Shown: positions 26,216 to 37,332 of the stretch, piece after piece
Layout: each line of letters starts with the position of its first letter
Position numbering within the stretch: position 1 is the first letter of the stretch
NCBI RefSeq assembly: GCF_030419005.1
Contig: NZ_CP106953.1
Coordinates: forward strand, 124,001-188,000
From: Eleftheria terrae
GTDB taxonomy: Bacteria; Pseudomonadota; Gammaproteobacteria; Burkholderiales; Burkholderiaceae_C
Length of the DNA: 64,000 nt
Reading direction: 5' to 3'
Notes under the pieces: generated by a model
What the model was told of the DNA's origin: nothing
The model's input: only the letters and a program-made list of their open reading frames with translations
The model's database searches: none
Translations under genes and position numbers: made by a program

Positions 26216-26481
26216 GAGGCGGAGGTGGCAAGGCGAATGCCGGCCAGCCCCCCGCGTTGCCGCGATGGCGCCGCCGCCCTGCGCGCCATGTCGTTGCCTT
26301 GCGGCTGGTGCAGCGCCGCTGCCGAGGAAGGTCGTGCCGGGACCGGACAGTGGTGCGATGACCGCCCCTGATGACGCGTTTGGTCGTTCCCTGCGTGGCA
26401 TGGCGCCTGCATTCATCCTGCAGCGGTGCGGATGTTGCGAAACGTTATCGCGCTAGCCGGTCCTCTCCAACACACAACACG

Positions 26482-28641
26482 ATGAAGCAGAACAAGAAAT
26501 CGATGCAGCGCGACGCCCGGGCTCGCGCCGGGATCCGGACGCTGTGGCAGGCGGCGGCGGTGGCCGGTTCGCTGGTGCTGGCCGCCTGCGGCGGTGGCGG
26601 GTCCTCCGGATCGGGCGGCACACCGACCGAAAACGCGGCCACCCAGGAATACACCCCGCTGCATCCGGCCGGCACCGCGCCGCTGGAGACCCTGCAATAC
26701 CGCGAAGCCGACGGCACGCTGGTGACCTTCATGGGAGCCCGGCCGACCGAGCGCCACGCCCGCGAACGGGGCGAAGCCTGGGACGCGCCGGACAGCGGGC
26801 CGGGCCGCTACCTGACCTTTCCCAGCTTCTACTTCCAGCACCGCACCTTTGGCCTCGAGATTCGCGACGAAGTGCCGGCCGGGCGCCAGCGCATCGAAGT
26901 GATCCTGCATGTCAACGACGGCAGCTTCGACGGCACCACCTTCAGCCTGTTCCGCAACATCAACAACCCCGAGGTGCGCGACTTCGGCTGGTCGCTGAAC
27001 TACGGCTTCAACAACCCCGAGGGCAAGCCGCTGTGCCACGCCGGCCAGCGCGTGTGCCGGATGCAGTTCACCTCGAACTGGCGCACCTCGCCGCACAGCC
27101 CGCTGAAGGTGGGCGACAAGATCGAACTGGCCCCGGCGCCGCGCCTGAAGAGCCCGGCCATCGATGGCGGCGGCGAGCGCTACTACTCCTTCGAGCAGCT
27201 CTACGTGGTGGGCGTCGGCCTGCGCCCCTGGTATGGCATCGCGCCCAACCTCGATTCCGAGCCGCTGCCCGAAGCCACCCTGCTCGGCGGGCAAGCGAGC
27301 GTCTCGTACAACTATTCCGAGGAACCGCACCGCCTGTTCCAGCAGATGGCGAACAACATCGGCATCGGCAACACCCAGCGCTTTGTCGAAGGGCGGCGGC
27401 TCTTCCATACCTCGTTCGCGGACGGCACCCATTCCGAACACCCGAAGGTCAACCCGGTCTTCACCGCCCATGTGGGCCAGCTGGGCCCGCGCTTCAACCA
27501 GGCCCGCTGCATTGAATGCCACACCGCGAACGGGCGCAGCGCGCCCATGCAGCCCGGTGAGCGGCTCGACACCTTGTCGGTCTTCACCGGCGTGGTGGGC
27601 GCCGGGGGGGAGGTGAAGCCAGACCCGACCTACGGCTGGAACATCCAGCAGCAGGCGGCCGATCCGGCGGCAGCCGACCATGGAGTGACGCTGAGGTCCT
27701 TCGAAAGCACCCGGCGCACGCTCAGCGGCGGCGAGCAGGTGGAGTTGCTGAAGCCGGTCTACGACTTCCGCGGGCCGCGGCCGGCCGCCTACTCGGTGCG
27801 GCAGGCACCGCAGGTCATCGGCTTGGGCCTGCTCGAGGCGGTGGACGAAACCACCGTGCTCGCACTGGCCGACCCGGCGGACCGCGACGGCGACGGGGTG
27901 CGCGGCATCGCGCAGTGGGTGCGCGATCCCGAGACCGGCCGGCGCCTGCTTGGCCGCTTCGGCTGGAAGGCGACCAAGGCCAGCTTGCGCCAGCAAGTGG
28001 GCGATGCGCTGGTGCAGGACATGGGCGTCACCTCGCCGGTGTTCCCGTCGCGCGACTGCCAGCGCGGCGGCGCCGATTGCCGTCGGCCGCAGGGCCCGGT
28101 GGCGGTGTCGGAGCAGGAGGTGCAACGCATGTCGCAGTACCTCTCCTTGATTGGCGTGCCGGCCCAGCGCAGCCTGCGCAGCGGCTATCCCGAGGGCATC
28201 CGCGTGCCGCCGGAGCACGAAGTCGATCCGGCCCGCATCACGCGTGGCAGCGCACTGTTCGCGCAGGCCCGCTGCACCGCTTGCCACCGGCCGCAGCTGA
28301 GCACCGGCAAGCACCACCCGCTGGCCGAACTGCGTGAGCAGGTCATTCGCCCCTATACCGACCTGCTGCTGCACGACATGGGACCGGGACTGGCCGACGG
28401 CCTGCCGCAGGGACAGGCCAGCGGCGCGATGTGGCGCACCCCGCCGCTGTGGGGCCTGGGCCTGTTGCGCCATGTGCAGAACGGCGAGCAGAACGTGCGC
28501 TATCTGCATGACGGCCGTGCCCGCAACCTGCTGGAAGCCATCCTCTGGCATGGCGGCGAAGCCGAGGGCGCCCGCATGCGCTTCGAGGCCTACTCGAAGG
28601 ACGAGCGGGACGCCTTGCTGGCCTTCCTCGGTTCGCTCTGA
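26482..28641 (+). CDS. Di-heme thiol oxidoreductase-like lipoprotein (DUF1111) with N-terminal extension
   Basis: A 719-residue exported lipoprotein: signal ending LVLAACGGGG (lipobox LAAC). Two CXXCH heme sites are visible, RCIECHTANGR near the middle and RCTACHRPQ toward the end. The region from GRFGWKATKASLRQQVGDAL to DMGVTSPVFPSRDC is diagnostic of the DUF1111 di-heme family, related to the MauG/CcpA peroxidases. About 250 residues before the first heme (LTFPSFYFQHRTFGLEIRDE, LHVNDGSFDGTTFSLFRNIN) form a beta-rich domain not part of the usual core. Its electron partner and substrate are unknown. The gene stands alone. Confidence 0.85.
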   Translation: MKQNKKSMQRDARARAGIRTLWQAAAVAGSLVLAACGGGGSSGSGGTPTENAATQEYTPLHPAGTAPLETLQYREADGTLVTFMGARPTERHARERGEAWDAPDSGPGRYLTFPSFYFQHRTFGLEIRDEVPAGRQRIEVILHVNDGSFDGTTFSLFRNINNPEVRDFGWSLNYGFNNPEGKPLCHAGQRVCRMQFTSNWRTSPHSPLKVGDKIELAPAPRLKSPAIDGGGERYYSFEQLYVVGVGLRPWYGIAPNLDSEPLPEATLLGGQASVSYNYSEEPHRLFQQMANNIGIGNTQRFVEGRRLFHTSFADGTHSEHPKVNPVFTAHVGQLGPRFNQARCIECHTANGRSAPMQPGERLDTLSVFTGVVGAGGEVKPDPTYGWNIQQQAADPAAADHGVTLRSFESTRRTLSGGEQVELLKPVYDFRGPRPAAYSVRQAPQVIGLGLLEAVDETTVLALADPADRDGDGVRGIAQWVRDPETGRRLLGRFGWKATKASLRQQVGDALVQDMGVTSPVFPSRDCQRGGADCRRPQGPVAVSEQEVQRMSQYLSLIGVPAQRSLRSGYPEGIRVPPEHEVDPARITRGSALFAQARCTACHRPQLSTGKHHPLAELREQVIRPYTDLLLHDMGPGLADGLPQGQASGAMWRTPPLWGLGLLRHVQNGEQNVRYLHDGRARNLLEAILWHGGEAEGARMRFEAYSKDERDALLAFLGSL

Positions 28642-29605
28642 GCACCGCGGCGGGGTGTGCCGGGGCCGCATAGCGCCGGGCACCTCCTCGTCGCCGCGGC
28701 GCGGCGGGAAGGTCCGCGTGCCGCTGCCGCGGGCTGATGGCAGTCGGCGCGCTCCTCGGCGTGGGCGGCCAGGGAGTCGCAGCCCACGGAAGGGCCTGCT
28801 CCGCCGCGGCGACCCGGGCGGCCGCCCCGGGAGACGGGATGCAGGGCTGCGGTGCGTGAGGAGTAGCGGTACAAGCACCAGGCACCACCACCGAAAGCAC
28901 GAGGCACCACAGCAGGATCGAGCGCCGGCAGGGCGCGGCACGCCAGCGGCATGCCAAGGACGGACGCTCCCGACGAGCGTCTGGCGTCCGCCCGATGCGC
29001 AAGGCTTTGCTGCGAGCCCCTGGCCTGCGGTGTCTGCCTCACTGACAGCAGACGCTCGCTGTCCCCATGGGCCACGGCCCCCTGATGGTTGGGGACGCCA
29101 CATCCATTGCTGAACAGCAGCAATCAGCAAATCGTCCTTCAGGCCATCGAAGAATGAGCGGGCGCCTCTTTCACATGGAAGCTGCCGGATAGAGCAGCAG
29201 CGGCGCAAGAAAGGCCGGGGCGTGCGCCGTCACGCAGTTCGGGGACAACGGCGCATCGGCCGGGTCCGCGCGCTCGGCTGGGGGCACAGGGGCGCCGTTG
29301 CCAAGGCGGCAGCGCAGCGGCAGCAATGCGTTGAACCGGCATGCGGGGCGCGTGAGCCGCAATGGCCACCTCATGGGCCTCGGACGGATTCGCCATGGCG
29401 GACTGCGGCACGCTGCCCCGCCGGTTTCGCGGCGCTTGCCTGTCACACGGCGGAGCAGGCAGCGGCCCACCGGCGCGGCATTGCCGGCGCACCATGGACG
29501 AGTGAGGATGCATATCCGGAATTCGTCCTTCCCTGTGGGGAACGATCGCGCTAAGTTGTGCGCAAGCCAGCCGGAACGAGGCGCTTCAGCAGCGCGCTGC
29601 CCACC
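28642..29605. other. Long non-coding stretch
   Basis: About 960 bases without a convincing gene; open frames exist but run into neighbouring genes on the wrong strand and have random-like composition. A perfect 7-bp hairpin (GACGCTC/GAGCGTC, 28963-28981) with a 5-base loop is the only clear structure. No rRNA, tRNA or IS is recognised. Confidence 0.5.
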
Positions 29606-29830
29606 ATGAACTCCACCGCCCACATCATCGACTTCACCGCTGCGCGGCAGCGCGTCTTGACCGCGCGCCGCCGCCGGGAACACGCGCTCCTCCGCGCGCG
29701 CTACCTGGCCCTGACCCAGCTTGCCTGCCACTGGCTCCCCGGCAGTCGCCCAGGCGGCCATTTGGCCGGTCGGGGTCCGCACGACACGGTCTGGTGGACA
29801 GCACCGGCGCGGCAGGGCCTCCAGCGCTGA
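29606..29830 (+). CDS. Small basic hypothetical protein (74 aa)
   Basis: The frame starting at 29606 gives MNSTAHIIDFTAARQRVLTA followed by an Arg-rich helix (RRRREHALLRARYLALTQLA) and a short tail. The N-terminal half reads like a genuine small protein; the tail is less convincing. There is no clear ribosome site. It overlaps nothing and ends nine bases before the XRE-cupin gene start, so it may be co-transcribed with it. Function unknown. Confidence 0.4.
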   Translation: MNSTAHIIDFTAARQRVLTARRRREHALLRARYLALTQLACHWLPGSRPGGHLAGRGPHDTVWWTAPARQGLQR

Positions 29831-29838
29831 ATCGACGC

Positions 29839-30540
29839 ATGGACGACGGACCCCACGGCAGGTCATCGCCGCTGCAGCGGCCGGAAGACGCAGAAGGCCG
29901 AAGCCGTCGCTCCGGTGGCAAGACGCCGCGTGCCTCCTCGCCGGGCCCCCGCCATCCCTCACCGCTCGGCCTTGCCGCGCTGGTGGGTGACAACGTCAAG
30001 CTGCTGCGCCGGCAGCGCCGCTGGTCGCTGGATCAGCTGGCATCGGCCAGCAGCGTGTCGCGGGCCATGCTGGGGCAGATCGAGCTGGGACGCAGCGTGC
30101 CGAGCATCAAGACCTTGTGGCTCATCGCCCACGCTTTCGATGTGTCGGTCTCGTGGTTCCTGGAGCCTCGGCAGACCGCTTCTGCGGTGGTGCTGCCGGT
30201 GGATCCGCTCGCGCTGGTCCCGCTCCCTGCAGGCGCCGGGCATCGGCGGGCGCTGTTCGTCGAGCAGGGGCCGCGCTATGCCGACCTGCATGAATTGCGG
30301 CTCGCCCGCGGGGCCACCGCGGAACTGCCCGCCGAGGACCGGCGCGCGCTGGTCAACGTGATGGTGGTGAAGGGGGCGCTCGACATCCTCATTGGCTCAT
30401 GGGGGCACCGGCTGTCCTGGCGCGAAGTGGTGCAGTTCGAAGGGCAGGACCGCGTGCTGTGCCACAACGCCGACGACGGCGAGACCGTGGCCGTCTGGGT
30501 GTCCCAGCCGCTGCATCCGCGTGCCACGGTGAAGGTGTGA
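29839..30540 (+). CDS. XRE-family regulator with C-terminal cupin domain
   Basis: A 233-residue transcription factor. After a disordered basic N-terminus (~40 residues), a helix-turn-helix is clear: GDNVKLLRRQRRWSLDQLAS, SSVSRAMLGQIELGRSVPSI and KTLWLIAHAFDVSVSWFLEP. The C-terminal half is a cupin-like sensor (LHELRLARGATAELPAEDRR, VMVVKGALDILIG, LSWREVVQFEGQDRVL). This XRE-cupin architecture usually represses genes of amino-acid or small-molecule metabolism and binds an effector in the cupin. Start is ATG 29839; GTG 29794 is possible. Its targets are not known. Confidence 0.85.
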   Translation: MDDGPHGRSSPLQRPEDAEGRSRRSGGKTPRASSPGPRHPSPLGLAALVGDNVKLLRRQRRWSLDQLASASSVSRAMLGQIELGRSVPSIKTLWLIAHAFDVSVSWFLEPRQTASAVVLPVDPLALVPLPAGAGHRRALFVEQGPRYADLHELRLARGATAELPAEDRRALVNVMVVKGALDILIGSWGHRLSWREVVQFEGQDRVLCHNADDGETVAVWVSQPLHPRATVKV

Positions 30541-30642
30541 GGCGCCCGTCCCTGGCGGCTGGACGGGCCGGCGCCAGTCCGGCGGTTCGTTGCCAGGCCA
30601 GGCTGTCGCCTTGCGGTGGCGGGCAGGCCGCCGCCGCCCGGA

Positions 30643-31074
30643 TCAATGCATGCAGACCATCAGCGGTGCAGAGCCGCACATCATGGTCATCGGCATGCCG
30701 CAGGCCATCATGCGGGTCATCATGTCGTTGCACAGCGACATCATCTCCATCGGCATCATGTCGCCGCCCATCATGGTGCAGCGCATGCCCTCGGCGGTCA
30801 TCTCGCAGTTCATCTTGGGCATCATCGGCATGCCACAGACCATCATCATCGGCATGCCGTTGCAGGTCATCATGCAGGGCATGCCCTTGGCCATCATGTT
30901 GTTCAGCATGTCGCAGCAGTCGCGCATCATGCCCATCGACATGCCGTCGGTCGGGGTCATGGTGCAGCTCAGGCCCTCATCCGTCATCTCGGTGCTCATG
31001 TGGCACATCATCGGGCTCATCATCATGCCCATCGCCGGGGTATCGGTCATCGGCATCGTCATCATCGCTTTCAT
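30643..31074 (-). CDS. Methionine/cysteine-rich cytosolic protein, candidate Cu(I)/soft-metal binder
   Basis: A 143-residue protein with 51 Met (36%) and 13 Cys. CCAGGAGC precedes the ATG, and almost every third codon position is G or C, so this strand is the coding one. There is no signal peptide. Two tandem units of ~55 residues align: EMTDEGLSCTMTPTDGMSMG followed by MMRDCCDMLNNMMAKGMP, and EMTAEGMRCTMMGGDMMPME followed by MMSLCNDMMTRMMACGMP. Each ends in a MxMMxxC cluster. Dense Met/Cys is known in proteins that buffer Cu(I) or Ag(I); that role here is inference. It is monocistronic, with a dyad upstream at 31136-31176. Confidence 0.8.
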   Translation of the reverse strand: MKAMMTMPMTDTPAMGMMMSPMMCHMSTEMTDEGLSCTMTPTDGMSMGMMRDCCDMLNNMMAKGMPCMMTCNGMPMMMVCGMPMMPKMNCEMTAEGMRCTMMGGDMMPMEMMSLCNDMMTRMMACGMPMTMMCGSAPLMVCMH

Positions 31075-31854
31075 GGCAGCTCCTGGAGTGAATGTTGAGA
31101 TCAGCAGAACGCGCGACATCCATCGGGCTTCCCCTGACGCGTTTCTGAAATTTGATCATGTGCTTATGCACGCGTCGAGTAAGCGCGTGCGCCGTCCAGG
31201 GCGATGTCTGTTGCAACGGCGTGCGCGTCCTTGATCGCGGATGGCCTTGCACCGGCCCGGCTCATCGGTGTGCAGACCCGGTGCACAGCGGGTGCGGATG
31301 GAGCAGGCGATGCCCCATTTTCTGCGGGCCGGCTCTTGTGCTTGGCGAGCCGCTCCAGTGGGTGGCCAGGGCCTCCATGGGGCGGAGTCCGCTGGTGCCT
31401 CCGGATCCCGATCCCGGTCTCACCGAGCAGGTGAGGCCGCCGACAAACACCGGCTGCACGCCTCACATGCCGAAGACGGCTGCCGTTGCGAGCCTGCGAG
31501 CGATGGCCCGGCGCTGACGCCAGCCCCACGCCGATGAGGGCGAGCCCCGCTCCCCGCCAGCCGAGGTGCCCCATGCGGGGAACAGGATCGGGCGGGTGGC
31601 TCGCACTGGTGCGCCTGGAACCCGGCGCTCGGCGGCCTCAGCCGAGCCGTTCTTGTGGTGGGCGAGAGTGCTCGCTACCGAAAGACCGGGCCCGGACGAT
31701 GCAGCGACATGCCCCCGCTTCGCGGGGCGACCTGCGCCGTTCGGGCCCCGTTGTCGGCCCCACGGTGTCACGATCCCGCAGGCCTGCACGATGGCCCGAG
31801 TGTTCTCCACGATCGTCTTCGGTCACGAGCGCCGGGCAGAGCCCCCCGCTACCG
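31075..31854. other. Intergenic region upstream of the Met-rich gene
   Basis: About 780 bases with no supported gene. The left 110 bases are AT-richer and include the dyad at 31136-31176; the remainder is GC-rich. A minus-strand stretch near 31520-31574 (GWRGAGLALIGVGLA) resembles a PEP-CTERM membrane anchor, but no intact frame leads into it. Confidence 0.45.
31136..31176. promoter_or_regulatory. Inverted repeat upstream of the Met-rich gene
   Basis: GACGCGT (31136-31142) and ACGCGTC (31170-31176) are perfect inverted arms, 27 AT-rich bases apart, centred about 80 bases before the Met-rich ATG. They could be an operator or part of the promoter. No recognisable CueR- or CopR-type box is present. 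Confidence 0.4.
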
Positions 31855-34086
31855 TCAATACCTCACCCACGTCCGGGTTGCATGGCTCTGCCCGATGCCC
31901 GGCTGGCGCCAGTCGCAGACACCGTTCGGAAACACCGCGGCCAGCCGGGCCGCCTGGGCCGGCGTGAAGACGGCCGGCGCATAGTCGGCCAGGTCGATGC
32001 GCTTGAGGCGGCATTTCAGGATGTCATCGGCCACCGATGCGCCGGCCACCATGCGCGGCGACGGTGTCTTGGGATAGAGCGTGTTGCACACGCCCGGTCC
32101 GTCAAGGGTCGCCGGCTCGCGGTGCCGCACGCGGTCGGTGGCGCTCCAGCAGGCGTCCTCGGCGTCCCGGGGCTTGAGCCGTGCCACCTTGTCCGGCGTC
32201 AGGGGGGCCGGGTCGGCACTCAGGGCGTCCAGCCAGGCCGTCATCAGGTCGAGCCGGGCCACCGCCTGCTGACGAACCAGCTCCACCAGCGCCTGCTGCT
32301 GCGCGGGATCGAGCCCCAACAGCGGTCCAAGCGCCGGGTGAGGCAGGGTCCAGATGACCTGGTTGTCGAAGCGGCCGTTGGCCCGCTTCAACTGCTCCCG
32401 CAGCTTGATGTCGTTGTAGGCGGTATGGATGTCGCCGGCCGGCTCGGCATACGGCCGCAGGTGGAAGATGGGGACGGTGGACAGGCCGCCGCTGCCGGTG
32501 CCCACCCGGCCAAGCTCGTACACCCGCGGCAGCGCGGTGAGGTCGGACACGGTGCGGGCCGTGGCGGGCTCGCCGTCCTGGTCGTAGCCGCCGATCTTTT
32601 CGTTGAGGTCGAGGAACTGTTCCACCGTGATGGCGCCCGAGCGCAGCCCGGTCAGGCCGTACTGCACCCCCACATTGTCCAGCGTGCGTCGCACGAAGCC
32701 GGTATCGGCGTCGCGGCCGAGCGAGGCGGCATTGACGTCATAGATGGAGCAGCGCACCCCCTGCGGGTTGCGCACGGGGTGGTAGATGCGCTGCGGGTCG
32801 CTCAGGCCGCAGGCGGGTTGCACGGCGCCGCTGGTGACGACGATGGCGTCCGCATTGCCGGCATCCCAGTTGCGGCAGGTGTCCTTGAAGTGCCCCTCGA
32901 CAGCGCGCCGCACCTCGTCGGTGGGTGGCGAGTGTGCAAAGTAGCGCTGCAGCAGCCGGCAGTCGGACACCGCCATGGCGGTGCTGAAGACATCCGGAAA
33001 GCTGGCGTCGGCCATCAAGCCGTCCAGGATGCCCGGGTAGTTCTGTGCGATGAGCAACTGCTGGATGGCACCGCCCGAGCCGCCGAGCCCGGCCATCCAG
33101 CGCGGCACGCCATAGTGCTTGGCCACGTGCTCCCGCAGCATCATGGCCGTCTCGGCGGCCAGCGGGTCGTTGACGTTGACCTTGTTGATGTTGAGCGTGG
33201 CGCCGACATAGGCAAAGCCGCGCGCCAGCGCGGTGATGCTCTGGCGATCGAAGTCGGTGGTCTTGAAGACATCATCCACCGAATTGACGCCCTGGTTGTA
33301 CTGCACCCCGGTCGATTCGCCGAAGCGCAGCACCACGCGCTGGTTCCAGCCGGCCGGGTTCCAGGCGCCGGCGGCCTTGGGGTCGTCCAGCACGGCGATG
33401 CGGTAGATCGCACGGTTGAGGGTGCCCGACTCCACCCGGACAATGAAGGGCACGCTGCGGCCGTCGAGCGTCGTGGTGCTGGCCAGGTCGGCCGGCCGGG
33501 GACCAAGCGGAGCCGCGAGTCGCTTGCGTTCGCCGCCAGCGGTGAAATAGAACCAGTCGTAGCGCGTGGCCGCCGAGCAATTGGCGTCCAGCGGCGCGCC
33601 AAGGCCGGCCTCGCGCGTGCGGCACTCGAATGGCGCCAGATGCGGGCCGGAGAAGATCGGCCCCCACAGCGGATGGTTGCGAACCACCACTTGCGCGACG
33701 GTATCGGGCAGGTTGGTGCTGGCCACACGCACCTGGTGCTCGCCGACCGGCAGCCCGGAGACCAGCGCCTCCACCCGCTGGTCGCGGCTGCGCAGCACCT
33801 GTGCCTTGGCCGGAACGCCGTCCACCGTGAAACGCAGCGAGTCGACCGGCACGCCGGCCGGCAGCGTCACGCCGAGGAGGGTACTGCCGCCACTGACCAT
33901 GTCGGCCCGGCCGGACAGCACCTCGGCGGTCAGTAGGGCGGCGTCGGCCTTTGACGCGGTGGCACAGGCGGTGGTGGCAAGGCCGCCGCCCAGCGAGGCG
34001 CACAGCACGGCCGATGCCCAAAGGGAGGTTCGCCGCTGCGCACCCGCCTTGCGACTGGCGCGGCTCCGGAGGTTGAAGAGGTCCAT
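31855..34086 (-). CDS. Secreted DUF6351-like alpha/beta hydrolase
   Basis: A 743-residue exported protein; GGAGA precedes the ATG. An N-terminal signal ends around LATTACATAS, possibly a lipobox. A beta-rich region with LRFTVDGVPAKAQVLRSRDQ follows, then a large hydrolase domain containing WMAGLGGSGGAIQQLL, whose G-x-S-x-G is the likely nucleophile elbow. Several cysteines (ECRTREAG, ANCSAATR, DCRLLQRYF, PACGLSDPQR, RCSIYDVN) suggest disulfides, fitting export. The family resembles DUF6351 proteins, which have no established function to my knowledge. The gene is monocistronic. Confidence 0.72.
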   Translation of the reverse strand: MDLFNLRSRASRKAGAQRRTSLWASAVLCASLGGGLATTACATASKADAALLTAEVLSGRADMVSGGSTLLGVTLPAGVPVDSLRFTVDGVPAKAQVLRSRDQRVEALVSGLPVGEHQVRVASTNLPDTVAQVVVRNHPLWGPIFSGPHLAPFECRTREAGLGAPLDANCSAATRYDWFYFTAGGERKRLAAPLGPRPADLASTTTLDGRSVPFIVRVESGTLNRAIYRIAVLDDPKAAGAWNPAGWNQRVVLRFGESTGVQYNQGVNSVDDVFKTTDFDRQSITALARGFAYVGATLNINKVNVNDPLAAETAMMLREHVAKHYGVPRWMAGLGGSGGAIQQLLIAQNYPGILDGLMADASFPDVFSTAMAVSDCRLLQRYFAHSPPTDEVRRAVEGHFKDTCRNWDAGNADAIVVTSGAVQPACGLSDPQRIYHPVRNPQGVRCSIYDVNAASLGRDADTGFVRRTLDNVGVQYGLTGLRSGAITVEQFLDLNEKIGGYDQDGEPATARTVSDLTALPRVYELGRVGTGSGGLSTVPIFHLRPYAEPAGDIHTAYNDIKLREQLKRANGRFDNQVIWTLPHPALGPLLGLDPAQQQALVELVRQQAVARLDLMTAWLDALSADPAPLTPDKVARLKPRDAEDACWSATDRVRHREPATLDGPGVCNTLYPKTPSPRMVAGASVADDILKCRLKRIDLADYAPAVFTPAQAARLAAVFPNGVCDWRQPGIGQSHATRTWVRY

Positions 34087-34716
34087 GCGATCTCCGTGTG
34101 AGGACGAAAAGGACGGACGTGTCGCCGGCACTCGCGCGGGGGACGGGCGTCCCCCGAAGACCTGCTCCTGAATCACGCACGGCACGTCGCGGCCGCACAG
34201 CGTACATCCGCCCCGGCATGGATGGAGGACGAAGCCGCGCGATGCAGCCAGAACCTGACTGATCTATCAGTGCTGCGGAGGCGCGAGGCCTCAGGCGCTC
34301 GTGCCAGGCAGTGATCGGCGTTGCGCCGCCGGGCTCTGCCCGACACGGATGGCCGGGTGGGGCCGTGCCCGGGCCAGGCCGCTTCATCTCCGTGTCGACG
34401 GTCGGGTGGGTCGTGGCGGCTCCGGCTTGCGGCGCATGGGGCCGTCACGGCCGGTGGCCTGTCTCCCAGGGCCGGGGGGAAGTGCCGGTGTGTCGTCGAT
34501 TCGATGCCCGGGGCGGCCGCGGGCTGGCGCCCGCGCCCCCCGCGAGCCGGGGAGGTGCGTCCCGGCGCGACAGGGCTATCTTGCCGGCTCGGGCCGCAGG
34601 CTCCCGCAGGAGGGCCTGCACCGGCGGGCGACCGGACGACGGCGGGTCGGTGACCCGCATCGGAGCCTGGCGGCTCCTGGCATCCCGCCGGTGCTTGTTC
34701 TCGGGAGCACTTCATC
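34087..34716. other. Divergent intergenic region
   Basis: About 630 GC-rich bases between the DUF6351-like gene and the PEP-CTERM gene. A short AT-richer element near 34256-34275 (CTGATCTATCAGTGC) is the only likely promoter element seen. No gene or RNA is supported. Confidence 0.4.
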
Positions 34717-37332
34717 ATGGCTGTGTTTGTTCTCAAGCGCCCGTCTGCCGGGCCTGCGGCAACTGCCGCTTCCTCGGTTGCGCGCCGACGTCCTGTTGTG
34801 CGGCGCCTCCATGCTGCGCTGGCGGCCTTGCCGTCGCTGGCGGCGGCAGTGCCGGCGTGGGCCGTCGACACGGTGTGGACCGGTGGCGCCGGCCCTGGGC
34901 GGCCTGACTGGGACCTGGCCCCCAACTGGTCTGCCGGCCCGCCCGCTGCCAGCGACACCGAGGCATTGCTCGGCGACCACGACACCATGCTGCGTCGCGG
35001 CCGCTTTGTCGCCCGCGGCCTGCGTGGCACTGGCACGCTGCGCATGACGGGCGGACAACTGGACCTGCATGCGGGCGCTTCCCGCCTCGGCGCACTCGAG
35101 CTCACTGGCGGCACGCTGGTGGGCCACGGCACCGCACTGGAGCTGGGCCGGCTGCGATGGCGTGGCGGCAGCATCGGCGACCGCGCCTCGGTCGAAGGCA
35201 CCGACATGGCGCTCACCGTGACCGGCCGCACCGTGCTGGACGGGCCGTCGCTGGTGATGGCGGGTGCCGGGTCATTGCAGTTGAACGGCCGTACCGAATG
35301 GCGCGACGGCGCATCGGTGCTGGCCACACCGCAGTTGGTCATCGGACCGGAGGGTGTCTTCCATGACACGGCCCGCACGGCTGCCCACGCGCTCGGCGCT
35401 TACGGCACGACGCTGCGCATCGAGGGCCGCTACGTCAAGACCGGCGCCGCGACGACCAGCGTCGCGACCAGGTCCTACTCCTTCGACAATCGCGGTCGCC
35501 TGGATGTGCTGGGTGGCACCTGGGAACAGCGCGTGGAGCCGGGAGGCAGCTGGTCCAACAGCGGCCATGTGCGGGTGAAGGACGCGACGATGCGGCTCAA
35601 CACCTTCCGTGCCGGCGTGTCCCAGGACGGCGTGGTCGAGGTGCTGTCCGACGCCCAGCTCGTCGTGCGCTACGACCGGGGCCTGCTCGCAAGCACCGGC
35701 ACCTGGAACATCGCCAAGGGTGGGCAGGTGGAGCTGGTCGACAGCGAGTTCTACAACGAGTTCGAGGCCCGCTTCGACCGGGGAGCGGTGAACAACGATG
35801 GGGTGCTGCGCTTTGCCGAAGGCCGGGCCAGCATCGGCTCGGACGTCCGCCTGCAAGGCACCGGTCGCCTGGAAGTGGCGCGGGCCGCCCGCGTGCGCGT
35901 GGACGGCGACATCGAGATGGGCGCCCTGAGCGTCGGCGACCCCCTGAACAATGGCGACCCGCCGTATGCCAGTGCGCAGTTCAGCCGGCTGCAGGTGCAG
36001 GGCCAGATGAACCTGGGCGAGCTGGAGTGGGGCGAAGCTGTGCTGCAGGTGGCCGGGCCAGTGACCGTGCGCGGACGCGCGGAGCTGTACGACCGGCGCG
36101 ACTACTGGGCCGGCTTCTCCCTGCCCCCGGGCAAGGAGATTCGCAGCGCCTACACCTTCCTGGGCGCGGCCGGCTGGGACGGCAACGCCGACCTCTATGG
36201 CAGCGGCAGCATCCGCATCGGGCCCGACGGCCGATTCGAGGACCGCAACAGCCAGGGCACCCGCGATTCCGAATTCGATGTGCCGCGCCCCACCCGTGTG
36301 GCGGTGTCCTCCTTCCTGAACGAGGGCCGCTACCTGAAGACCGGGGCTGGCGCCACCACGGTGAGCGCCGCCTTCACGAACGCGGGCACGGTCCGTTCGG
36401 TCGCTGCCGGGCCGCTGACCTTCACCGGCCGCTTTGACAATCTTGGCAGCGTCGAGGTCGAGCGCGGCCGCCTGGTGCTGTGGGGCCCCCTGGTGCAGTA
36501 CCGCAATGGCGAGCTCAGCGGCGGCCGCCTGGTGGCGCGAGACGGCACGCTGGCGTTGAACCTGGGCAATGGCCCGGACGGGCGCCGTCCGGCCCTCATC
36601 GACACCAACCGCGGTGAACTGGTGCTCGATGGCGCGCAGGCCCGTATCGTGACCCTGTGGCAGGGCAACGAATACAACGCCCTCGGCGGCGCGCTGCTGA
36701 ACCCGGGGACGGTGCGCCTGCTGGGCGGGGCCGACGTGCAGATCCACCAGCTGGACAACCTGGGAGTGATGGACATCGGCACCGGCAGCGCGCTGCGCAC
36801 CACCAGGTACAGCCAGTGGGCAGAGTCGGCCGCTGCGGCGCGGCCGGTGACCTGGTTGGCCGGCCTTGTGGAAGCTCCCGTGGTGGAGCTGCTCGGCGGC
36901 GACCTGAGCGCTGGCGCCTCCGGCGAGGTGGGCCGGGGCAGCGTGCAGGGCGAGCTGATGCTGTTGGGAGCCGGGCGCCTGTGGCTGGACGTGGCAACGG
37001 GTGGCGATGTCGACCAGCTTCTGGTGTCGGGAACGGCCCGGCTGGAAGGCTTGTTGTGGGCGCAGTTCGATCCGGCGTCGGTGGTGACCGGCAGCTACCG
37101 CTTCCTGACGGCCGAGGGCGGCGTGAGAGGCCAGTTCTTGCGAGTGGACAGCAACCTCGACAGCGCGCACTACCAGCTGGCGCTGCGCTATGGCGCCGAC
37201 CATGTGGAACTGGTGGTGTCCGGCGTGCCGGAGCCGGGCAGCTGGCTGCTGATGGGCATGGGCCTGGCCGTCCTGGCCGGGGGGCTGCGCCGTCGTGCGG
37301 CGCGAAACCCAGGCCCGGGCCAAGCCGGCTGA
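34717..37332 (+). CDS. Large PEP-CTERM protein with repetitive beta-strand structure
   Basis: An 871-residue exported protein. GGGAG precedes the ATG; the signal peptide covers residues ~1-50 (cleavage after VPAWA). It then carries long runs of short beta strands punctuated by NSGHVRVKD, NNDGVLRFAEG, NEGRYLKTGAGATTVSAAF and similar turns, as in beta-helix surface proteins. A VPEPGSWLLMGMGLAVLAGG tract plus RRRAAR at the C-terminus is a complete PEP-CTERM sorting signal, so an exosortase should process it; none is present in this window. A role in extracellular matrix or floc formation is typical of the class. Confidence 0.9.
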   Translation: MAVFVLKRPSAGPAATAASSVARRRPVVRRLHAALAALPSLAAAVPAWAVDTVWTGGAGPGRPDWDLAPNWSAGPPAASDTEALLGDHDTMLRRGRFVARGLRGTGTLRMTGGQLDLHAGASRLGALELTGGTLVGHGTALELGRLRWRGGSIGDRASVEGTDMALTVTGRTVLDGPSLVMAGAGSLQLNGRTEWRDGASVLATPQLVIGPEGVFHDTARTAAHALGAYGTTLRIEGRYVKTGAATTSVATRSYSFDNRGRLDVLGGTWEQRVEPGGSWSNSGHVRVKDATMRLNTFRAGVSQDGVVEVLSDAQLVVRYDRGLLASTGTWNIAKGGQVELVDSEFYNEFEARFDRGAVNNDGVLRFAEGRASIGSDVRLQGTGRLEVARAARVRVDGDIEMGALSVGDPLNNGDPPYASAQFSRLQVQGQMNLGELEWGEAVLQVAGPVTVRGRAELYDRRDYWAGFSLPPGKEIRSAYTFLGAAGWDGNADLYGSGSIRIGPDGRFEDRNSQGTRDSEFDVPRPTRVAVSSFLNEGRYLKTGAGATTVSAAFTNAGTVRSVAAGPLTFTGRFDNLGSVEVERGRLVLWGPLVQYRNGELSGGRLVARDGTLALNLGNGPDGRRPALIDTNRGELVLDGAQARIVTLWQGNEYNALGGALLNPGTVRLLGGADVQIHQLDNLGVMDIGTGSALRTTRYSQWAESAAAARPVTWLAGLVEAPVVELLGGDLSAGASGEVGRGSVQGELMLLGAGRLWLDVATGGDVDQLLVSGTARLEGLLWAQFDPASVVTGSYRFLTAEGGVRGQFLRVDSNLDSAHYQLALRYGADHVELVVSGVPEPGSWLLMGMGLAVLAGGLRRRAARNPGPGQAG

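Follow-up and report, generated by a model that had tools for sequence, protein, structure and literature searches.

The window, by which we mean the whole 64,000-nucleotide stretch of Eleftheria terrae DNA analysed here, carries on its minus strand a reading frame (P0002) that runs from 31074 down to 30643 and encodes a protein of 143 amino acids. A recount agreed with the earlier note on this DNA in finding 51 Met and 13 Cys, so that 64 of the 143 residues bear sulfur. The protein begins with a Met-rich N-terminal tail (residues 1-23; 31006..31074, minus strand) and continues with two units, residues 24-78 (30841..31005) and residues 87-141 (30652..30816), both likewise on the minus strand. 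The ribosome-binding site that had been reported ahead of the ATG is there, with AGGAG 5 bases upstream of the start codon within CTCCAGGAG (31080..31088, minus strand). Two partner genes at 29606-30540, absent from the earlier note, lie on the plus strand. One encodes an XRE-HTH regulator (29794..30540), is convergent with the Met-rich gene and is conserved from about 29911, its start codon being uncertain; the other, upstream of the regulator, encodes a small protein of 74 amino acids with the N-terminal motif IIDFxxxRxR (29606..29830). Other neighbours in the window are a di-haem oxidoreductase (DHOR; 26371-28641, plus strand), a DUF6351 tannase-like protein (31855-34185, minus strand) and a PEP-CTERM protein (34717-37332, plus strand).

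The Met-rich reading frame is a real bacterial gene. GC3 reaches 95% across the whole frame and 92% when its Met codons are set aside, leaving 92 codons; the window itself is 70% GC. The two units share 27 identical positions and align with z = 10.6, and none of 1000 shuffles of the same composition equalled the real score; the resemblance is therefore not a composition effect, and the tandem duplication of about 55 residues described earlier stands. Between the window gene and its relative in the genus, dN is 0.18 and dS 0.50, and dN/dS lies below 0.4 in all eight pairs of Met-rich homologues compared, with values from about 0.02 to 0.38 in the seven other pairs. The alignment of the units and these ratios together rule out a low-complexity artefact, as the earlier note had argued from the sequence. 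The gene is single-copy in its own genome. By eye, neither the window protein nor its relatives have a signal-peptide-like N-terminus (a charged n-region and a hydrophobic stretch), and the protein is probably cytosolic, as had been proposed.

The unit was present in all 170 proteins examined (238 copies, 224 of them distinct), in part by construction, since these proteins were collected by similarity to the family. The window protein has two units, and myxobacterial and some alphaproteobacterial relatives have one; the N-terminal tail also differs in length between relatives and is far longer in some. Eight columns of the unit are near-invariant (Pro18, 99%; Pro43, 97%; Cys14 and Cys48, 95% each; Met3 and Met37, 94% each; Met38, 92%; Met34, 91%). 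At nearly every hydrophobic column Met is more frequent than any other residue among the 224 distinct units, and at most of the hydrophobic columns beyond those eight it alternates with Leu, Ile, Val, Phe, Ala, Thr or Cys, as at column 16 (Met 80%, Leu 9%, Ile 4%) and column 27 (Met 54%, Phe 25%, Leu 19%). Homologues with conserved Met and Cys positions, on whose existence the earlier note had let its proposal depend, were thus found.

A structure prediction of the unit, which the earlier note had suggested, was also obtained. In the AlphaFold model of the window protein (mean pLDDT 76, pTM 0.67) each unit has the order b-b-a-b-b, with block means of pLDDT of about 80-92 in the units and values below 50 at residues 1-19 and 77-84. 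A one-unit Polyangium protein, modelled from a separate alignment, is predicted to have the same order (mean pLDDT 69, pTM 0.47). Both models have strands and one main helix per unit, and a four-helix bundle is not predicted. Searches of the PDB gave no sequence match to the Met-rich protein, no chain match at E <= 0.001 and no clear fold match for the predicted models. We infer that the unit is an ordinary small domain, the core of which has been rebuilt with sulfur residues, and its composition looks selected as a whole.

The Met-rich proteins are an unnamed family. Pfam and NCBIfam returned no family for the window protein, even at E <= 1, and the libraries searched (Pfam, NCBIfam and PADLOC) do not contain the family; no description of it was found in the open-access literature searched. 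Relatives occur in Beta-, Gamma- and Alphaproteobacteria and in Myxococcota. A search with a single sequence found 17 relatives among 19 candidates, and a profile search found 234 matches among 7,991 candidates scored; genera among the best 120 of the 234, which were those listed, are Myxococcus, Pyxidicoccus, Sorangium, Polyangium and Pseudomonas. When named genomes were scanned, 47 loci were found, in Pseudomonas, Pseudoxanthomonas, Luteimonas, Rhodocyclus, Phyllobacterium, Magnetospirillum, Pyxidicoccus, Polyangium and MAGs. The distribution is patchy: the gene is present in 2 of 9 genomes of the genus, 2 of 399 in the order and 1 of 369 in a sample of the class (own genome counted), and in 7 of 398 genomes of a phylum sample built around a Pseudomonas genome (that genome counted). 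Met content in the database proteins examined, the window protein included, ranges from 22 to 46% with a median of 38%, the less Met-rich relatives having 22-30%.

Two other candidate explanations were set aside. Plasmid cargo was ruled out because two members, used as tblastn queries, matched none of 72,556 plasmid records, and a defence system was ruled out by PADLOC, which matched neither the Met-rich nor the small protein; with the regulator it gave 13 weak matches, all within the HTH region.

The Met-rich protein, an XRE-cupin regulator and a tiny 'IDF/IDL' protein form a conserved module. A homologue of the regulator lies within 1.5 kb of the Met-rich gene in 44 of 49 distinct loci of Pseudomonadota and Myxococcota (45 of 50 rows of the table, in which L003 and L021 are one contig). 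It was not found in L018, nor in the available pieces of L042 and L045. In L048 and L049 the regulator is 9.3 kb and 4.7 kb from the Met-rich gene, with other genes between them, perhaps through insertion. The two genes are divergent in four xanthomonad loci (L005, L006, L007 and L009) and convergent in the other loci with a near regulator. A regular expression found a small reading frame with the ID motif in 41 of 47 rows; five of the six misses (L005, L006, L007, L009 and L027) have a BLAST match to the small protein in place, and the sixth, L048, is cut by the end of the locus. The small protein family, tied to the module in two phyla, has the N-terminal motif xVID[L/F]xxYRxRK, and Pfam gave no match for its member in the window.

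Of the 9 genus genomes, the regulator is present in 2, the very two with the Met-rich gene. Over 39 loci the distance matrices of the regulator and the Met-rich protein are correlated with r = 0.96, a value reached in none of 2000 permutations and uncorrected for species history, which alone would also raise r. In a DNA comparison of the window with the genus relative over 18 kb, what aligns is the module (window 29604-31074), and the flanks are unaligned except for one distant match of 293 columns at 67%. On all these results, the three genes act like one transferable unit.

In the regulator of the window the XRE HTH is clear (PF01381, E 8.9e-13). Cupin_2 was detected in the regulator of L012 and not in the window copy, the C-terminal part of which aligns to the cupin of its relatives without the conserved cupin residues. 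These residues are gone in the window and in the genus relative and are kept in the 13 other members of the 15 aligned, so that signal sensing may differ in this genus, the signal perhaps having been changed or lost. The window regulator is an XRE-cupin relative whose sensor has diverged.

The earlier note had placed a possible operator of the Met-rich gene in an inverted repeat at 31136..31176. The repeat consists of two perfect 7-nt arms (31136-31142 and 31170-31176) set 27 nt apart. Since the DNA alignment with the genus relative ends at the start codon of the window's Met-rich gene, conservation lends the repeat no support, and we dismiss it as an operator. Elsewhere, 16 non-Pseudomonas loci, the window included, have 8 copies of the motif TCCG-N6-CGGA in their 350-bp upstream pieces (in 6 of the 16 loci) and 12 copies in their other 277 kb, an upstream excess of about 32-fold that is post hoc, since the motif was picked after the upstream sequences had been viewed. 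Of the 12 other sites, four lie ahead of the regulator operon in two myxobacteria; a 14-mer, TCCGTTATAGCGGA, is common to Luteimonas and a Myxococcaceae MAG. The motif is missing upstream in the window and in all 17 Pseudomonas loci tested and is therefore not universal; we regard it as a candidate operator in some lineages. An AT-rich conserved stretch (about AATAAAT... AGTATTTAT) lies upstream of the small gene in L012, L014, L024, L031, L046 and other Pseudomonas, and it is possibly a lineage-specific operator that takes the place of TCCG-N6-CGGA there.

The surroundings of the module were compared with those of control stretches, using E. coli K-12 proteins (Tau, Ssu, MetQI and Cys; copper; Msr) as queries against the 49 loci and two control sets. 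By eye, the loci were collapsed to 26 contexts, the 14 loci of the P. fluorescens group counting as one. Controls came from the genomes of 25 loci: 40 hand-picked stretches, taken from contigs of 19 of the 25 genomes and away from listed SsuA matches, and 51 stretches chosen by rule (the start of C1 or C2, or the midpoint of a contig), which were added because the hand-picked set is biased against sulfur genes. In two of the rule-based draws 9 of 40 requests had no such stretch, and one stretch was short. The two sets are not to be pooled, since three midpoint stretches overlap earlier ones. One control in each set (L066 and L161) overlaps the locus L043; neither has a match at E < 1e-10, and their sole match, to SsuD at 1.65e-9, weighs against a sulfur excess in the figures at E < 1e-6. 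Gene calls are poor in some loci (L039, L041).

The module is flanked by homologues of sulfur-acquisition proteins more often than the controls are, and the enrichment is modest. At E < 1e-10 such homologues are found in 9 of 26 contexts and 12 of 49 loci, as against 2 of the 40 hand-picked and 4 of the 51 rule-chosen controls (contexts, p = 0.0025 and p = 0.005, respectively; loci against the rule-chosen set, p = 0.022). At E < 1e-6 the counts are 11 of 26 contexts and 14 of 49 loci, with 4 of 40 and 7 of 51 in the controls (against the rule-chosen set, p = 0.007 by contexts and p = 0.057 by loci). Copper homologues at E < 1e-10 occur in 4 of 26 contexts and 6 of 49 loci, compared with 3 of 40 and 8 of 51 controls, and a CPC-type copper ATPase was absent from the gene calls of the loci. 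Msr shows no enrichment at the same threshold (1 of 26 contexts and 1 of 49 loci; controls 1 of 40 and 2 of 51). In the neighbour analysis proposed in the earlier note, the class enriched around the module is sulfur acquisition, and context gives no backing to the copper or silver role, or to the methionine-based oxidant sink, that the note had considered. Near the Met-rich gene of Pseudomonas sp. QTF5 (L040) there are strong CusA and CusB homologues and a weaker MsrA homologue, its copper-efflux match being the strongest among the loci.

SsuA-family proteins exceed the number expected. From a genome-wide density of 293 per 168.2 Mb in 25 genomes, 0.88 would be expected in the corresponding 25 loci, and 11 were counted, in 9 of them; these 25 of the 49 loci were chosen after their neighbours had been viewed. 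Over all 49 loci the count is 12 (with L051) against 1.6 expected, and the gene calls of L002-L050 and the window hold no SsuA-like protein beyond those 25 loci. The SsuA-family neighbours include a gene for a taurine-binding protein in Rhodocyclus. MetQ-like genes are found at L021, L024, L037 and L044. The 14 loci of the P. fluorescens group have a common FecI/FecR/TonB context and no sulfur match; the domains of the FecI-type sigma factor, FecR and the TonB receptor were confirmed in L012 (11257-14953), and the other loci were assigned by gene clustering.

The genus relative (L051) carries its module inside a sulfate/sulfonate island, whereas the window's own copy, on contig C4 of its genome, is not in such an island: the sulfur, copper and Msr queries all found nothing in a 22-kb piece around it. 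In the relative, cysP-cysT-cysW, which score above their NCBIfam cut-offs, lie on one side of the module, and SsuA-like and TauD-like genes, which score below theirs, on the other. The island further contains a sigma-54 activator, an ABC ATPase that was recognised by eye, and a flavoprotein of the fumarate-reductase type that also resembles adenylylsulfate reductase, though more weakly. The genome of the window has a syntenic island on contig C2 from which the module is missing, as are the TauD gene and the SsuA-like gene just named, and the interval measures 2.0 kb there against 5.6 kb in the relative; a different gene of the SsuA family is found several kb beyond, still within that 20-kb stretch (C2 2283441-2284106). 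Beside the sulfate transporter genes of the relative there is a second XRE-cupin-like regulator (L051 1264-2040, minus strand), with a clear HTH and a Cupin_2 match below its cut-off.

From the gene family and its module, the co-inheritance of the regulator, the candidate operator of some lineages, the excess of sulfur neighbours and the modelled fold, we suggest, at somewhat short of an even chance, that the Met-rich protein is a cytosolic reserve of methionine and cysteine, and so of sulfur, under local control. Slightly more tentatively still, it may be a ribosomally made bacterial sulfur bank, in which a regulated domain with a core rebuilt from Met and Cys, letting cells deposit reduced sulfur and draw on it again, is carried by a transferable three-gene module through proteobacteria and myxobacteria. 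The protein would combine a folded b-b-a-b-b domain, with Met or Cys at most hydrophobic positions, and a disordered Met-rich tail, so that nearly every second residue bears sulfur. The adjacent XRE-cupin regulator would repress the Met-rich gene and lift the repression in times of ample sulfur, or of an ample sulfur metabolite recognised by the cupin; under shortage, proteolysis of the protein would release its Met and Cys. XRE-cupin regulators of Pseudomonas are described as local repressors of neighbouring metabolic genes (PMC7901475), and E. coli SutR, an XRE regulator, as acting on sulfur utilisation (PMC11332829). Counting against a reserve are the window copy, which is without sulfur neighbours, the P. 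fluorescens-group context, which is without a sulfur match, and the loss of the cupin residues in the regulators of the window and the genus relative.

The main feature that a plain store leaves unexplained is the pair of near-invariant Cys, and a metal or thiol function is possible. A pure store needs no invariant thiols, so the conservation of Cys14 and Cys48, together with several Met above 90%, makes a specific site possible. The protein could buffer or store a soft metal such as Cu(I) or Ag(I) in the cytosol, as would suit its clusters of Met (Met-x-Met and Met-x-x-Met spacing runs throughout the window protein), its two near-invariant Cys per unit and the CusA and CusB homologues of Pseudomonas sp. 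QTF5. We think this unlikely: copper genes are not enriched around the module and a CPC copper ATPase is missing from the gene calls, Met positions swap with Leu, Ile, Val and Phe, the predicted fold differs from the four-helix bundle of Csp, and XRE-cupin proteins are not, to our knowledge, a type of copper sensor. Less likely again is a sacrificial sink in which Met would take up hypochlorite or other oxidants and be regenerated by MsrA and MsrB, a cytosolic counterpart of MrpX. A protein that is over one third Met would suit that purpose, and Met-rich MrpX, which is periplasmic, and probably BcrX work in this way according to PMC8315932 and PMC4623255. Against it stand the lack of Msr enrichment, with no Msr gene at the window locus, the absence of an MXKDX repeat from the 143 residues and the concentration of Met at hydrophobic columns of a predicted folded domain.

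The protein could also take a structural or catalytic part in sulfur assimilation, for instance as a carrier that uses the Cys pair, and its richness in Met would then be secondary. The conservation of Cys14, Cys48, Pro18 and Pro43 and the existence of relatives with 22-30% Met agree with such a role, but no family, PDB sequence or clear fold matches the protein, and Met is preferred over Leu, Val and Ile at nearly every hydrophobic column; we regard it as improbable. Most improbable among these readings is a gauge of methionine supply, in which translation of a Met-dense message, or the amount of the protein, would inform the regulator or the IDF protein. That the gene goes so closely with a single regulator and a single small protein, and the sulfur context, would fit a gauge, yet one of the leader type needs no conserved, duplicated fold under purifying selection, and the gene is usually convergent with the regulator and not ahead of it.

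The known reserves of bacteria hold carbon, nitrogen, phosphorus, iron and elemental sulfur, and we know of no described bacterial protein that stores methionine and cysteine. If the sulfur reserve is the true function, it would add a novel type of nutrient reserve, complete with regulator and candidate operator. Even if the family handles metals or oxidants, a median of 38% Met in a conserved predicted fold across two phyla would mean that composition has been under selection.

Among known systems, the family resembles the hypochlorite sinks MrpX and BcrX of Azospira and Brucella, which according to PMC8315932 and PMC4623255 are small, Met-rich and accompanied by their own adjacent regulator. 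As described there, MrpX is located in the periplasm, MXKDX repeats are present in BcrX, and the two occur with methionine sulfoxide reductase genes; the family considered here differs in its XRE-cupin regulator, the lack of linkage to Msr and the lack, by eye, of a signal peptide. With the copper storage proteins Csp1 and Csp3, the latter cytosolic, it would share the character of a small storage protein with sulfur ligands. The Csp bundle is lined with Cys, whereas Met is the main sulfur residue of the Met-rich family. Csp proteins are four-helix bundles (PMC7558416), unlike the predicted b-b-a-b-b units, which have no Pfam match.

The likeness to the sulfur-rich seed storage proteins of plants is one of working principle: both are made ribosomally and would owe their value to sulfur amino acids, but the Met-rich family is bacterial and has its own transcription regulator. 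The plant proteins of this kind include Met-rich zein and 2S albumins. IssA, a thioferrate storage protein, stores sulfur, as the Met-rich protein may do, but it holds inorganic iron and sulfur as thioferrate (PMC5524996), unlike the proteins considered here, whose stored sulfur would be in their own Met and Cys. The main text of PMC7901475, on Pseudomonas XRE-cupin regulators such as ErfA, PsdR and PauR, contains neither the word 'sulfur' nor the word 'hypothetical'. As described there, these regulators, like those of the module, combine an HTH with a cupin, adjoin their target and are swapped with it as a unit; their neighbours are enzymes or transporters, and in the module the place of these is taken by a Met-rich protein.
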